The notes below the pieces were generated by a model that was given only the letters and a program-made list of their open reading frames with translations, was not told the DNA's origin and searched no databases. Below are positions 10,701 through 18,804 of a DNA stretch of 64,000 nt, piece after piece. Both the position numbers and the translations under genes were made by a program. Origin of the DNA: an uncultured Flavobacteriaceae bacterium. Its GTDB lineage: Bacteria > Bacteroidota > Bacteroidia > Flavobacteriales > Flavobacteriaceae. The stretch lies in the NCBI GenBank assembly GCA_947495135.1, contig CANLXN010000012.1, forward strand, positions 62,001 through 126,000, written 5' to 3'. How positions within the stretch are numbered: the first letter of the stretch is position 1; each line of letters starts with the position of its first letter.

Positions 10701-11207
10701 GGAGAAGGTGGCGGAGAGAATGGCGGTGGTTCTGGAGGAGACGGCAAGGGAGGTAAGGATGGAGAGAATGGTGATGGTGAAGGATACAATGAGGATCTCA
10801 ACGGGGAGTTATATGAAATATATAAGCAACAGCAGCAGTTAAGAAATCAGTTACAAGACAGACTAAACGAAAAAGGACTTAAGGGAAGAGGAGGAGACTT
10901 GATCAAGGAAATGGAGGGGATCGAGCAGCAGCTCCTAGATAAAGGATTCAACCAAAGAACGCTTGAAAGAATGTTGAACCTGGAATATGAATTATTAAAA
11001 TTGGACGAAGCCGATTTTGAGCAGGGTCAAGAAACAAAGCGAGAAGCTAGGACGAATAGACAAAAATTTAGAAACACTCTACGTTTAAATCCAGAGGACA
11101 TTAAGAAATATTTCAACACTACAGAAATTCTCAACAGGGAAGCATTACCTTTGCGCCAAGAATATAAAAAGGAAGTGCAAAAGTATTTTAAAACAAGTAA
11201 TGATTGA
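7752..11207 (+). CDS. DUF4175 family giant membrane-anchored coiled-coil protein
   Basis: An 1151-residue protein. Two membrane helices occupy about residues 22-75, with a third near 155-172. Next come two or three beta-rich Ig-like stretches (about 190-490) with phrases such as PGYTGRRDETLKSTGN. A very long charged coiled coil (about 490-760, rich in K, E and Q) follows, then a glycine/lysine/glutamate low-complexity segment (about 898-1012), and finally a helical C-terminus. This architecture matches DUF4175, a Bacteroidota family of unknown function. It overlaps ybeY by 8 bases and is probably co-transcribed with it. The layout suggests a structural or scaffolding role spanning the periplasm, but no function is established. 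Confidence 0.85.
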   Translation: MSTFSVIQQKLEQFIKKYYTNELIKGVILFFAIGLLYLIVTLLVEHFLWLSSSGRTILFWTFVFVEVGLFVRFIAFPLAKLFKLQQGIGHVEASRIIGSHFPQVNDKLLNVIQLNQNQRESELLAASIDQKAGELQPVPFKSAINFKKNAKYLKYAAIPVVIILMVNLLWDKELFSNSYERVVNYDQAYEAPAPFSFILVNENLTAIENKNFTLKVKTEGAVVPENASIRFKNEAYYLEQTSPGRFEYTFSQPSDAVSFQLSANDVTSQEYTLDVVKTPSLLGFEMFLDYPGYTGRRDETLKSTGNATVPEGTRVSWRVRTQNTDEVQIKTKDTSYAFTATAQEFSFNKGVYRRMDYAITTSNKNLKEYENLSFTLGVIKDEYPEIKVESKEDSTNAQTTYFLGDVRDDYGLSKLQVVYYPEGNEKEKKTEAIGINKTNFDRFVYSFPGDLDLPEGISYEYYYEVFDNDAIHNYKSVKSGFYAFRKLTKEELENQQLDKQEENIKDLSKTLKEMKRQDKKLEELNDLQKEKNEMNWNDKKKLENFIQRQKQQEQMMKNFSKEMKENLQQFQPEEESDPFKEQLEERLEDNEEQMEENEKLLEELERLQDKIDKEELTEKLEKLSKQNKNQEKNLEQLVELTKRYYVTKKAEKLAEELFKLGEEQEKLSDAPKEENTEEKQGELNKEFEKYKEQMKELQEENKGLKEPMDIPQDSGGEEQIQEEQKKATEQLQQQKPEGAAPSQKKAGKKMQEIGKQMQAQMQAGQGETMEEDVEMMRQILDNLVTFSFEQEDLMELFKETDYGSAAFGKRLNIQNDLKLNFQHIDDSLFALSLRQPMISKEINESLTEVSYNLDKSLERLAENRKRNGISSQQYTVTGANELAILLSNILGNMQAQMNASGQGKGQGKGKGQGQGQGEGFQLPDIIEKQKSLGEKMGEGMGKGKSGKEGQEGESGEGGESGGQEGENGREGKEGKGGKIGQGEGEGGGENGGGSGGDGKGGKDGENGDGEGYNEDLNGELYEIYKQQQQLRNQLQDRLNEKGLKGRGGDLIKEMEGIEQQLLDKGFNQRTLERMLNLEYELLKLDEADFEQGQETKREARTNRQKFRNTLRLNPEDIKKYFNTTEILNREALPLRQEYKKEVQKYFKTSND
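10447..10788 (+). repeat. Gly/Lys/Glu-rich low-complexity coding tract
   Basis: Within the DUF4175 gene, 10447-10510 encodes alternating G-Q-G-K-G units and 10556-10788 encodes G-E-G, G-K-G and G-G-S units. The plus strand here is almost entirely A and G, giving very strong purine asymmetry. Such a tract can vary in length by slippage. It is probably a flexible linker in the protein. Confidence 0.8.
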
Positions 11208-11616
11208 GTTTTATTCTGAAACGGAATTTGAATTAACAAATGGTGCTGAGGTGGAAAAATGGATTTCTTCGGTGATTTCTTCTGAAGGATTTGAGGAGGG
11301 AGATATTACTTATGTCTTTTGTAGCGACGAGTATTTACATAAATTGAATCTTCAGTTTTTGAATCATGATACCTTAACGGATGTTATAAGTTTTGACAAC
11401 TCTTTGGGAAAACAAGTGCACGGAGAAATTTACATATCAATAGATAGGGTGCGGGAAAATGCAAGCGAGTTTGGGGCAGTGATCATGGACGAATTACATA
11501 GAGTAATGGTGCACGGGGTTTTACACTTCTGTGGATATAAAGATAAAACGTCTGATGAAGAAAAACGGATGCGATTAAAGGAGGATGAGGCATTAAATGC
11601 GAGGATTTTCGTATAA
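11200..11616 (+). CDS. ybeY: Endoribonuclease/rRNA maturation factor YbeY
   Basis: A 138-residue protein of the UPF0054 family, a zinc-dependent RNase that works in 16S rRNA 3'-end processing and ribosome quality control. Landmarks are FLNHDTLTDVISFD, HGEIYIS and the metal motif HGVLHFCGYKD near residue 107. In E. coli the zinc is held by three histidines (HGTLHLLGYDH). Here the third position is an aspartate (H-x3-H-x5-D), apparently usual in this phylum, and Asp can bind zinc. The start ATG overlaps the end of the DUF4175 gene, which indicates translational coupling. Confidence 0.92.
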   Translation: MIEFYSETEFELTNGAEVEKWISSVISSEGFEEGDITYVFCSDEYLHKLNLQFLNHDTLTDVISFDNSLGKQVHGEIYISIDRVRENASEFGAVIMDELHRVMVHGVLHFCGYKDKTSDEEKRMRLKEDEALNARIFV

Positions 11617-11700: not shown

Positions 11701-11716
11701 TGTTCCACGTGGAACA
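11701..11716. promoter_or_regulatory. parS: parS-like centromere site upstream of mnmG
   Basis: TGTTCCACGTGGAACA is a perfect 16-base palindrome. It matches the general ParB-binding consensus TGTTNCACGTGNAACA; the Firmicutes form has T and A at the two N positions. It sits 8 bases before the mnmG start codon. A second copy lies just after mnmG. ParB spreading from such sites organises and segregates the origin region. The two copies around one gene make chance unlikely, although neither parA nor parB is in the window. Confidence 0.8.
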
Positions 11717-11724
11717 TTGTAACG

Positions 11725-13596
11725 ATGTTTAATAAAGAATATGATGTTATAGTAGTGGGTGGTGGCCATGCAGGTTCTGAAGCGGCGGCGGCGGCGGCCA
11801 ACCTCGGGTCTTCTACGCTTTTGATCACTATGAATCTTCAAAACATAGCACAGATGTCATGTAATCCTGCCATGGGAGGCATTGCCAAAGGGCAAATAGT
11901 TCGTGAAATTGATGCGTTGGGAGGATATAGTGGAATTGTCTCAGACAAAAGTGCGATTCAATTTAAGATGTTGAACAAAAGCAAGGGTCCAGCGATGTGG
12001 AGTCCTAGAGTGCAAAGCGACAGAATGCGTTTCGCAGAATCTTGGCGATTGATGTTGGAGGGAACACCTAACTTAGACTTCTATCAGGAAATGGTGGGAG
12101 GAATATTAGTGGAAAATGGTCGGATAGTTGGAGTTAAAACCTCACTTGGTATTGAGGTTCGGGCAAAGAGCGTTGTGCTAACAAATGGAACTTTTCTAAA
12201 TGGACTAATTCATATTGGAGAGAAGCAATTTGGTGGTGGACGTGCTGGTGAAAGAGCGGCGACTGGTATTACAAAAGAACTAGTAGAATTGGGATTTGAA
12301 TCTGGAAGGATGAAGACAGGAACACCCCCAAGAGTGGATGGTAGATCGTTGGATTTTTCAAAAATGATTGTTCAGCCAGGCGATGCGGATGCGCAAAAAT
12401 TTTCTTATTCTGATGAAACGAAACCGCTAACTCATCAAAGAGATTGTCATATGACTCATACCAGTGAGATCGTACATGACTTATTAAAAGAAGGTTTTGA
12501 TAGATCACCAATGTTTAATGGTGCTATTAAAAGTATTGGGCCTAGATATTGCCCTTCTATCGAAGATAAGATCAATCGATTTGCTGACAAAGATCGACAT
12601 CAGCTTTTCGTTGAACCTGAGGGATGGGATACGGTAGAATATTATATTAATGGGTTCTCTACTTCTCTACCAGAGGAGGTGCAGTTTAAAGCTCTTAGGG
12701 AGTGTGCAGGTTTTGAAAATGTGAAGTTTTTTAGACCTGGCTATGCTATAGAATACGATTATTTTCCACCTACACAGTTGAAGCATACGTTAGAGACCAA
12801 ATTGGTAGATGGATTGTTTTTTGCTGGCCAAATTAATGGAACCACTGGATATGAAGAAGCTGCTTCCCAAGGGCTAATGGCCGGAATCAATGCGCATCAA
12901 AAAGTGCATGGCAAAGGTGATTTTATTTTAAATAGAGACGAAGCTTATATAGGGGTGCTTATTGATGATCTTATTACGAAAGGAACCGAAGAGCCGTATA
13001 GGATGTTTACTTCAAGGGCGGAATATAGAACGTTATTAAGACAGGACAATGCCGATTTTAGATTAACTCCAAAGGCCTTCGACATTGGTCTAGCTAGTGA
13101 AAAGCGTCTTCGAAAAATGGAGGAGAAACGAACTAAAAGCAATGCATTTGTACAGTTCTTTAAGGACACCAGTGTTGTACCAACGGTCATCAACCCTATT
13201 TTGGAAGCCAAGAATTCGGCTGCGGTTAAACAAAGTGATAAAATGTTCAAGATGTTTTCGAGGCCTAATATTACGATGGAGGATATGCGAAAAGTCCAAA
13301 GTGTTGATGATTTTATAATTGAAAACAATCTGGATACAGAGGTGTTGGAGCAAACCGAAATACAAGTAAAGTATGCGGGATATATTCGGAAAGAAAAGAA
13401 CAACGCAGATAAATTAAGTAGGCTGGAGAATGTAAAGATCCCGGCTAATTTTGATTATACAAAACTAAAGTCTCTGTCTTATGAGGCAAGAGAAAAGCTT
13501 ACAACAATACAACCAGTGACTATATCGCAGGCATCTCGAATAAGCGGGGTGTCTCCTAATGATATTTCTGTATTATTAGTTTATATGGGTAGATAA
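11725..13596 (+). CDS. mnmG: tRNA uridine-5-carboxymethylaminomethyl modification enzyme MnmG
   Basis: A 623-residue FAD protein that, with MnmE and a folate donor, modifies U34 in the anticodon of certain tRNAs. The N-terminal dinucleotide fold VVGGGHAGSEAAAAAANLG lies at about residues 10-28. The family motifs SCNPAMGGIAKG, the catalytic-type CPSIEDK and GQINGTTGYEEAASQG are present, and the C-terminal helical domain ends with GVSPNDISVLL. The length is normal. The ATG at 11725 is chosen because it gives MFNKEYDVIVVGGG. parS-like palindromes lie immediately before and after the gene. mnmG (gidA) is often near the replication origin in bacteria, which fits this context. Confidence 0.97.
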   Translation: MFNKEYDVIVVGGGHAGSEAAAAAANLGSSTLLITMNLQNIAQMSCNPAMGGIAKGQIVREIDALGGYSGIVSDKSAIQFKMLNKSKGPAMWSPRVQSDRMRFAESWRLMLEGTPNLDFYQEMVGGILVENGRIVGVKTSLGIEVRAKSVVLTNGTFLNGLIHIGEKQFGGGRAGERAATGITKELVELGFESGRMKTGTPPRVDGRSLDFSKMIVQPGDADAQKFSYSDETKPLTHQRDCHMTHTSEIVHDLLKEGFDRSPMFNGAIKSIGPRYCPSIEDKINRFADKDRHQLFVEPEGWDTVEYYINGFSTSLPEEVQFKALRECAGFENVKFFRPGYAIEYDYFPPTQLKHTLETKLVDGLFFAGQINGTTGYEEAASQGLMAGINAHQKVHGKGDFILNRDEAYIGVLIDDLITKGTEEPYRMFTSRAEYRTLLRQDNADFRLTPKAFDIGLASEKRLRKMEEKRTKSNAFVQFFKDTSVVPTVINPILEAKNSAAVKQSDKMFKMFSRPNITMEDMRKVQSVDDFIIENNLDTEVLEQTEIQVKYAGYIRKEKNNADKLSRLENVKIPANFDYTKLKSLSYEAREKLTTIQPVTISQASRISGVSPNDISVLLVYMGR

Positions 13597-13604
13597 CACA
13601 TAAA

Positions 13605-13620
13605 TGTTCCACGTGGAACG
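13605..13620. promoter_or_regulatory. parS: Second parS-like site, downstream of mnmG
   Basis: TGTTCCACGTGGAACG matches the upstream copy in 15 of 16 bases; the inner 14 bases (13606-13619) are a perfect palindrome. It lies in the 42-base gap between the mnmG stop and the methyltransferase start, about 1.9 kb from the first copy. This spacing suits a ParB loading zone. Confidence 0.78.
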
Positions 13621-13638: not shown

Positions 13639-14481
13639 TTGGATTCAGCAAAGGAACATATTTCAATAAAAGATTTTTTAGTTTCAGGTGAAGAATTTTC
13701 CTTGAAGCTGAATCAAGATTTTGGGTTTTTAGAAACAATTCCCCGGCCTAAACTAGAAGATTTAGCTAAATATTACGAGAGCGAGGATTATATTTCGCAC
13801 ACCGATTCTAAGAAAGGGGTACTTGCTTTTTTATATCAGACGGTTAAAAAATACTCGCTTAATAAAAAAGTAGCACTCATTGAAAAACGAAATTCTGGAA
13901 AGGGGTCTTTATTAGATATTGGAGCTGGAACGGGCGAGTTTTTAAAGGTTGCAGAAAATAAAGGTTGGGATATTTCTGGAGTAGAACCAAATTCGAAAGC
14001 TAGGTCCTCTGCGAAAACAAAGGGGGTGTCTCTTTTGGAAAGTATGGATGCAGTGGCAGGCAAACAATTTGACGTTGTTACTTTGTGGCATGTGTTAGAA
14101 CATTTACCAGATTTGGAAAAAACTGTTGCCAAAATTGAAAGTTTGATTAAAGTTGGAGGCACGCTCATTATTGCAGTTCCCAATCATAATTCTTATGATG
14201 CAAATTATTATAAGAATTTTTGGGCAGCTTATGATGTGCCAAGACACCTTTGGCATTTTTCCCAATCGTCTATGCGAAAATTGTTTTCGAAGAAAATGAA
14301 ATTGGAAAAGACGAAGCCAATGATTTTTGATTCCTTTTATGTGAGCTTGCTTTCAGAAAAATATAAAAACGGAAATGCTTTTTCTATCCGAGCATTTTTG
14401 ATTGGACTCAGGTCGAATGTCCTTGCAATGTCTTCAAAAGAATACTCTTCCCTCATTTACTGCTTTAAAAAGACTGAATAG
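13639..14481 (+). CDS. Class I SAM-dependent methyltransferase
   Basis: A 280-residue protein. The SAM-binding motif I is LLDIGAGTGEFLKVAENKGW (about residues 91-110), followed by the acidic motif GVEPN and the post-motif VVTLWHVLEHLPDLE. The family 'methyltransferase domain 23' in flavobacteria has the same beginning, with KDFLVSGEEFSL and YYESEDYISHTDS. No ATG lies before this conserved part. The TTG at 13639 is the first usable start after an in-frame stop at 13624, and it gives the family's normal N-terminus. The acceptor is unknown; a small molecule, lipid or glycan is possible. Confidence 0.85.
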   Translation: MDSAKEHISIKDFLVSGEEFSLKLNQDFGFLETIPRPKLEDLAKYYESEDYISHTDSKKGVLAFLYQTVKKYSLNKKVALIEKRNSGKGSLLDIGAGTGEFLKVAENKGWDISGVEPNSKARSSAKTKGVSLLESMDAVAGKQFDVVTLWHVLEHLPDLEKTVAKIESLIKVGGTLIIAVPNHNSYDANYYKNFWAAYDVPRHLWHFSQSSMRKLFSKKMKLEKTKPMIFDSFYVSLLSEKYKNGNAFSIRAFLIGLRSNVLAMSSKEYSSLIYCFKKTE

Positions 14482-17185: not shown

Positions 17186-17220
17186 GCAAAATTTACGCGG
17201 TGACCCCCCGTTACTTTATT

Positions 17221-18804
17221 ATGAAATCACCTTTTATATACTCACTTCTATTTCTTATGAGCGTTACATTGTGCGCTCAGGAAACGAACATAATCACAGA
17301 GACCACTTCTGAAACAGACTCACTTCCCACAAAAATGATCCAAGTGGTAGATAGCATAACGGTGCAGCGTATCGACAACGATTTGCCAACTACTGTAATT
17401 GCTACTCAAACGAAGGATACGGTTGTTTTTAACCTCCGTGACAATGCATTGGCGAAAAAAGTAGATTCGTTATGGCTTCACGAACTTTACAATAACGATT
17501 TATTTGAAGAAGTTTATGGTTCGATCACCCAAATGAATTTCGATCCAGTAGAATATGAAGAACTACCTACCGAACTTCTTAAATCACGTCTAGAAGAATT
17601 AAATGCTCGAACACCTTTTAACGTCGAGTACAATCCATCCTTGGAGAGTGTAATTAAACGCTATCTCAAGAATAGAAGAACCACAATGTCAAAGCTAATG
17701 GCGTTGAGTGATTACTACTTTCCTATGTTTGAAGAGGAATTAGATAGACAGGGTTTACCTCTGGAAATGAAGTACCTAGCAATTGTAGAATCTGCGCTAA
17801 AGCCACAAGCGACCTCTCGAGTAGGTGCTCAAGGGTTATGGCAGTTTATGTTTAGCACAGGTAAAATGTTTGGCCTGGATGTAAATTCGTATGTGGACGA
17901 ACGCTCAGATCCAGTAATGGCAACTGAAGCCGCGGCAAAATATTTACACAGCCTTTATACAAGTCTTGGAGATTGGGACTTAGCTTTGGCAGCCTATAAT
18001 AGTGGGCCAGGGAATGTTTCCAAAGCAATTAGACGTTCTGGAGGACGAACTAACTATTGGAATATTAGACAACATCTTCCACGTGAAACAGCGGGTTATG
18101 TTCCAGCTTTTCTTGCGACAATGTATATTTTTGAGTTTGCAGAAGAACACGGCTTTAAAAGTAACGGACCAAAATATCCTTACATCTTAACAGATACGGT
18201 GAAAGTGAAGAAAATGATTTCCTTAGATCAGGTCGCTAGAGTTACTAATCTTCCAATTGAGGAACTAGAATTTCTTAATCCTTCCTATAAACTAGGTATA
18301 ATTCCAATAGTGAAGAATGAAAACTATATGCTTCGTTTGCCTATAGAATCTGTTGGACTATTTGTTTCAAATGAAGAAGCCATCTACGCTTTGGCTGAAA
18401 AGGAATTTAACCAAAGAGAAAAGCCCTTACCAGAATTGTTTGAGCAGAAAGATCGAATTCGCTATCGGGTAAGAAGTGGCGATTACTTAGGAAAGATTGC
18501 TTCCAAATATGGAGTCACGGTTAGTAAAATAAAAAGATGGAACGGTTTAAAAAGTAATAGACTAAAAATTGGTCAACGACTTACCATCTACCCACGTAAA
18601 ATGAATGTAAGTAATTCCTCTTCAAGCACCACTAAGAAAAGGCCAGCGGTGAATGGCGCTGCATATACTGTTAAAAGTGGAGATTCGCTTTGGAGCATTT
18701 CACAAAAATTTCCAGGTGTTACTGTGGAACAAATTAAAAAATGGAACGATATTAGTGGTAGCAATCTCAAACCGGGAATGAAACTTAAAGTATCGAAAGG
18801 TTAA
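17221..18804 (+). CDS. LysM-containing lytic transglycosylase (MltD-like)
   Basis: A 527-residue secreted enzyme that cleaves the glycan strands of peptidoglycan. The ATG at 17221 gives a signal peptide (MKSPFIYSLLFLMSVTLCAQ). The SLT domain is at about residues 175-320, with catalytic Glu190 in LAIVESALKPQATSRVGAQG, then GLWQFM, AAYNSGPGNV and LPRETAGYVP. Two LysM repeats follow near the C-terminus (RYRVRSGDYLGKIASKYGV and AYTVKSGDSLWSISQKFPGV) and bind peptidoglycan. This is the MltD plan. It is followed after 19 bases by a DUF4837 lipoprotein, probably in one operon. Confidence 0.93.
   Translation: MKSPFIYSLLFLMSVTLCAQETNIITETTSETDSLPTKMIQVVDSITVQRIDNDLPTTVIATQTKDTVVFNLRDNALAKKVDSLWLHELYNNDLFEEVYGSITQMNFDPVEYEELPTELLKSRLEELNARTPFNVEYNPSLESVIKRYLKNRRTTMSKLMALSDYYFPMFEEELDRQGLPLEMKYLAIVESALKPQATSRVGAQGLWQFMFSTGKMFGLDVNSYVDERSDPVMATEAAAKYLHSLYTSLGDWDLALAAYNSGPGNVSKAIRRSGGRTNYWNIRQHLPRETAGYVPAFLATMYIFEFAEEHGFKSNGPKYPYILTDTVKVKKMISLDQVARVTNLPIEELEFLNPSYKLGIIPIVKNENYMLRLPIESVGLFVSNEEAIYALAEKEFNQREKPLPELFEQKDRIRYRVRSGDYLGKIASKYGVTVSKIKRWNGLKSNRLKIGQRLTIYPRKMNVSNSSSSTTKKRPAVNGAAYTVKSGDSLWSISQKFPGVTVEQIKKWNDISGSNLKPGMKLKVSKG

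Follow-up and report, generated by a model that had tools for sequence, protein, structure and literature searches.

Putative parS sites on both sides of mnmG in a flavobacterial genome and their conservation beside this gene across much of Bacteroidota

In many other bacteria gidA, gidB, parA and parB form a cluster at the replication origin, and parAB are usually found near parS. In such ParABS systems ParB binds to parS, closes into a CTP clamp and slides along the DNA, and the resulting complex is moved by ParA. The locus studied here is similar to this arrangement in that a candidate centromere and mnmG (gidA) lie together at what may be the origin, whereas parA and parB are beside dapB on another contig, and the putative parS sites and mnmG have stayed joined. 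It also resembles the origin-proximal parS clusters of ParABS systems of the Spo0J/Soj type (Livny et al. 2007, as cited in the accessible parts of PMC10197239 and PMC7333895) in its 16-bp palindrome, its few clustered copies, its proximity to the origin in several relatives, and its soj-like ParA and Spo0J-like ParB; it differs from them in having an unlinked parB and a cluster that is tied to mnmG across much of the phylum. According to the accessible text of PMC10197239, parS clusters mark the origins of Bacteroidetes, these origins do not always coincide with dnaA, and no known condensin was found in the two Bacteroidetes studied by Hi-C. Our locus shares parS clusters with those Hi-C origin domains, and here, too, no protein scored above the SMC_prok_B cut-off. 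The main text of that article makes no mention of mnmG or gidA, and within the portion of the literature on parS/ParABS in Bacteroidota, flavobacteria and Chlorobi that was covered we found no description of a parS-mnmG link, although an earlier description in Livny et al. 2007 is possible.

The window, that is, the whole stretch of 64,000 nucleotides that was analysed, comes from an uncultured Flavobacteriaceae bacterium. The original prediction had placed two parS-like palindromes around mnmG with 8-base gaps to its start and stop codons, and both palindromes were found exactly there, with the gaps borne out by the gene model (Table 1). Both fit the 16-bp pattern TGTTNCACGTGNAACA, site 2 with one outer-base mismatch, and share the centre CACGTG; they match the chromosomal parS consensus TGTTTCACGTGAAACA, as quoted in the accessible text of PMC10197239, except for a C instead of T at position 5 and for the partner of this base. 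With three mismatches allowed, the 16-mer matched the window 3 times against 0.18 expected, and none of 100 shuffles reached 3. Across the entire draft genome (4,293,109 bases in 45 contigs) the exact 15-mer TGTTCCACGTGGAAC occurs in just two places, the mnmG flanks, 1.9 kb apart, and the chance expectation for the exact 14-mer in this genome is 0.006 from the base frequencies and 0.005 from the dinucleotide frequencies of the contig. Copies with two mismatches occur in 7 places of the draft, 6 outside the window and one at window position 18075, and the reversed pattern, used as a control with up to two mismatches, gave 1 match. The 151-kb contig holds 11 perfect 14-bp palindromes, of which no two but these sites are identical in sequence. 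The genome-wide copy search proposed with the original prediction thus returned two exact, clustered places and not many copies scattered evenly.

Table 1. Features at and near the putative parS sites (window positions)
Feature	Position	Strand	Remarks
ybeY, 5' neighbour	11200..11616	+	TIGR00043, above cut-off
parS site 1 (putative)	11701..11716	.	TGTTCCACGTGGAACA, perfect 16-bp palindrome in the ybeY-mnmG spacer; ends 8 bases 5' of the mnmG start codon
mnmG (gidA), tRNA uridine-5-carboxymethylaminomethyl(34) synthesis enzyme	11725..13596	+	TIGR00136 837.5 bits, cut-off 524.85
parS site 2 (putative)	13605..13620	.	TGTTCCACGTGGAACG, perfect 14-bp palindrome core; begins 8 bases 3' of the mnmG stop codon
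SAM-dependent methyltransferase-like gene, 3' neighbour	13639..14481	+	UbiG similarity, under that family's cut-off
Near-match TCTTCCACGTGAAACA	18075..18090	+	within a murein transglycosylase D-like gene, 17200-18804 (family score under curated cut-off)

We consider it very likely, judging from sequence, that the two palindromes serve a chromosomal ParABS system as its parS, a centromere close to the origin, in keeping with the chromosomal centromere suggested originally. This reading is supported by the consensus, the rarity of the sites, the parA-parB pair in the genome, the conservation of the sites at this locus across much of the phylum, and the proximity of a skew switch or of dnaA in several relatives. 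From the general behaviour of ParABS systems we infer that ParB, encoded with ParA on a separate contig, would load at both sites as a CTP-dependent clamp and slide across mnmG and its neighbours, and that ParA would move the ParB-parS complex, by which newly copied origins would separate. The gene mnmG would then be a passenger, with the sites occupying the short spacers on each side of it, and selection would hold the sites at their origin-side place and not at mnmG as such.

Conservation was studied in the best 80 of 592 mnmG stretches (1,580,404 bases; hereafter the named loci), from which our own genome and those near it may be absent. Among these best 80 of 592, the exact GTTYCACGTGRAAC lies beside mnmG in 78 (67 have it on both sides, 8 only upstream and 3 only downstream; L082 and L095 are without it), and the exact 14-mer is found 5' of mnmG in 75 and 3' of it in 70. 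Nearly all exact sites in these loci (186 of 187) fall between 1.3 kb upstream and 0.6 kb downstream of the gene, limits that we chose so as to include arrays, and the 187th lies about 0.9 kb downstream. The nearest site is a median of 16 bases upstream (range 6-127, 75 of the 80 loci) and 12 bases downstream. The reversed pattern had no match in the same 80 loci, and when 200 control palindromes with the same half-site letters were searched, 198 gave at most one match compared with 187 for the real sequence; the other two gave 109 and 27 matches, and both overlap the real consensus. Arrays are borne by the Flavobacterium loci, with 12 upstream copies at up to two mismatches in L038. In this locus, five copies of TGTTCYACATGGAACA at ~117-base spacing, about -179 to -647 from mnmG, stand beside seven copies with the CACGTG centre. 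Two records titled Limnohabitans and Chitinophaga pinensis (L039 and L057) have a Flavobacterium-like mnmG with parS sites and are probably mislabelled bins.

Whole genomes gave a similar picture. In the order sample of 59 genomes exact sites were found in 42; in 41 of these at least one lies no more than 1 kb from mnmG, and for the remaining one (G035) no position was located. Among the matches listed, 30 of the 42 genomes were placed. Each of the 30 has a site no farther than 1 kb from mnmG, 19 of them on both sides; in 28 of the 30 every site lies within this distance, the exceptions being G017, which has extra sites at a contig edge just past ybeY, and G030, in which one site is 5.7 kb from mnmG. 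Eleven of the further 12 genomes were read from loci, all with a site at mnmG, and G035 is the twelfth. The 17 genomes without exact sites are seven of family f10, each with one one-mismatch site adjoining mnmG, seven of family f15, and G005, G032 and G037, in which no site was found even with up to one mismatch; mnmG was not found in the latter two. The phylum sample of 80 genomes overlaps the order sample in part, and 21 of its members were read from loci of 1.5 kb each side only. In 72 an exact site was present inside mnmG or no more than 1 kb from it, 28 of them carrying sites on both sides, 22 only upstream and 22 only downstream. The other eight comprise four with exact sites elsewhere (G131, G106, G086 and G103) and four that lack exact sites (G102, G116, G123 and G143), of which G143 carries two one-mismatch sites at mnmG.

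The original prediction also held that ParB on the leader site could affect the expression of mnmG. The 8 bases between site 1 and the start codon, and the 16-base upstream median in 75 of the best 80 of 592 loci, speak for a corresponding explanation, namely that the sites are operators kept so that ParB can control mnmG, with ParB on the leader palindrome blocking or tuning transcription or translation. ParB also has a part in the regulation of gene expression, according to the accessible text of a review (PMC7333895). However, the 22 genomes of the phylum sample with a downstream site only, out of 72 with an exact site near mnmG, speak against such control. So does the genus of L082, where the sites have kept their place although mnmG is absent from it, and L082's own mnmG has no nearby site. 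These downstream-only genomes and mnmG-free clusters weaken control of mnmG as the conserved role, and we regard it as improbable.

The mnmG of L082, whose record is titled Capnocytophaga, is the only one of this genus that was itself read, and it has no site within 10 kb on its start side or in the 10 kb beyond, to the extent that the record covers them. Of 20 genomes of the genus, 19 carry 3-5 exact sites, and in all 19 a cluster adjoins an orthologue of the methyltransferase gene that is the usual downstream neighbour of mnmG (18 of 19 when loci of 3 kb were read). When stretches of 15-19 kb round the main cluster were read in 18 genomes, the methyltransferase was found in 18 of 18, and mnmG and five other window neighbours in 0 of 18; the 19th genome, that of L082, offers a 5-kb contig only, with the methyltransferase, and mnmG was absent from this as well. 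In 9 of the 18 (L357-L374) sites lie on both flanks of the methyltransferase, which is the two-sided pattern on a different gene. One more site is present in G160 on a separate contig, where none of seven query genes was found in the 15 kb read. Because the clusters persist at the methyltransferase without mnmG, the sites follow the place and not the gene, and the situation in this genus seems best explained by mnmG having left while the centromere stayed.

Another possibility is that the palindromes form hairpins in the mnmG RNA and serve in leader structure, 3' end processing or termination. In predicted RNA each site is a 5-bp stem with a 4-base loop, and both sites are terminator-like on the minus strand (2 found compared with 1.4 expected). 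Yet among 186 sites from the best 80 of 592 loci, single-arm changes on the mnmG strand that break a pair (C with A) were seen at 43 sites and those that keep it (U with G) at 22, the pattern permitting both equally. Moreover, no Rfam match reached the gathering score (the 3 weak matches lie away from the palindromes), and the folding energies had z values of -1.3 and -1.7 compared with shuffles. A structured RNA element or terminator was rejected because pair-keeping changes are not in excess and there is no Rfam match at the gathering score; we consider RNA hairpins extremely improbable. In the Tenacibaculum loci L068, L069 and L074, degenerate palindromes followed by a T run lie 3' of mnmG and resemble terminators derived from a parS copy.

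The genome under study has one ParB-family match, above the TIGR00180 cut-off, on contig C8 and hence not on the contig of mnmG. The gene order there is soj-like parA, parB, a DUF gene and dapB, with the neighbours named by eye. Among solved chains, 16 distinct sequences match this ParB up to E 0.001, under the names ParB, Spo0J, Stage 0 sporulation protein J and Noc; for ParB/Spo0J chains E was as low as 1e-51, and the aligned part contains GKNRSTVTN and SMGHGR. Noc-binding sites (NBS) have a CCCGGG-type centre and go with a Noc paralogue; identity with an NBS was rejected, as the centre here is CACGTG and the genome has one ParB-family match. Binding by another palindrome-reading regulator or a Noc-like protein instead of ParB would be in line with the off-consensus centres, such as CACATG, of some lineages. 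The fit to the chromosomal parS consensus save position 5 and its partner (accessible text of PMC10197239) speaks against such a binder, as do the single ParB-family match and the seven f15 genomes (0.3-0.6 Mb), which have neither a ParB match nor exact sites; this makes it very improbable.

A centre changed on one side (CACATG or CATGTG), with one half-site off consensus, was observed beside mnmG in G010, G022, G031, G038, G045, G050 and G055 (L220-L226), in L032 and L051, and in L241. No clear matching change was seen in the ParB recognition region of the CACATG-centre lineages. A GKxR stretch was found in 35 of 36 ParB loci and not in G005, which is weak evidence as the search expression nearly requires the motif, and the six f10 ParB proteins read have in common an F where many others have Y.

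For the parS reading itself, several observations were counted as adverse. They include the eight phylum-sample genomes that have no exact site within 1 kb of mnmG, and the skew results given below for the genome under study, G053 and G064. In G039 the site is present without a ParB match. The distance between parB and mnmG is 0.17 to 2.2 Mb in 11 single-contig relatives treated as circular (in Mb: G041 0.88, G053 1.03, G048 0.85, G026 0.80, G049 1.86, G003 1.18, G018 1.29, G013 about 0.75, G027 about 2.2, G064 0.99 and G011 0.17), and such a remote parB counts against parS because parAB are usually near it. In addition, no protein of the genome under study scored above the curated SMC_prok_B cut-off (5 weak matches) despite the presence of ParA and ParB, which suggests that the usual SMC-loading role may be absent.

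The position of the locus relative to the origin was studied by GC skew in five single-contig relatives, each sampled at 20 stretches. A switch of skew sign adjoins mnmG in three of the five: at 2.535-2.56 Mb with mnmG at 2.567 in G041, at 0.80-0.85 with mnmG at 0.876 in G026, and at 1.83-1.88 with mnmG at 1.859 in G049, with stretches departing from the skew rule at 1.21 and 2.30 Mb in G026 and at 0.25 and 1.05 Mb in G049. The skew of G064 (Polaribacter by title) is noisy, with the switch at 2.38-2.42 Mb and mnmG at 2.45, and that of G053 is unclear. On the contig of mnmG in the genome under study (C12, 151 kb only), the minimum of the cumulative skew lies 19 kb upstream of mnmG after only a mild fall. 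Beyond about 6-8 kb of the window the skew is strongly positive, and before that point it is mixed. C12 showed no cluster of DnaA boxes resembling TTATCCACA. In the named loci (best 80 of 592), TTWTCCACA boxes show a mild excess 5-7 kb downstream of the mnmG start, with 10 and 6 in two 1-kb bins and 0-5 in the other listed bins. In G130, which belongs to another class, probably Chlorobia as we take it, dnaA, dnaN, recF and two more genes are followed by mnmG; mnmG and two sites lie 6.7 kb past dnaA, the exact sites being 15 bases before and 13 bases after the ends of the mnmG model. A RecF-like reading frame was noted by eye near mnmG in G121.

A broader proposal, which we put forward tentatively as a serious possibility, is that mnmG and parS are an ancient origin-region unit. 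The common ancestor of Bacteroidota, including the class of G130 (probably Chlorobia), would already have had parS beside mnmG, perhaps on both sides of it; parA-parB would later have moved off while the centromere stayed, and the segregation complex would work without a known SMC partner. If this is true, mnmG would locate the centromere and the origin in draft genomes and bins of the phylum. In this phylum dnaA does not always mark the origin (accessible text of PMC10197239), and a centromere that stays next to a single conserved gene would offer an easy origin landmark in drafts and metagenome bins. It would also mean that parS can hold its chromosomal place with parAB remote and, in one genus, with mnmG gone. 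The mnmG-flanking sites are a ready target for experiments on flavobacterial ParB-parS, in a genome in which the usual SMC partner was not found.

Several matches lie within coding sequences. The near-match TCTTCCACGTGAAACA was rejected as a third parS because its codons spell L-P-R-E-T in the murein transglycosylase D-like gene, and it is probably a coding coincidence. The same 16-mer occurs 4.5-5.5 kb 3' of mnmG in five of the best 80 of 592 loci (L020, L021, L027, L029 and L035), where we infer that it encodes the same transglycosylase stretch; it is a trap for parS scans. In G131 and G106 (family f18), whose mnmG is on a different contig, an exact site falls within thrC and is read in frame as the peptide GSTWN (L261 4927, L262 6580); thrC was identified by family scan in L261 and by eye in L262. 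Exact parS-like sites also lie within the coding sequence of mnmG, at offset 1376 in G049 and G028, which are of one genus, and at 369 in G089.
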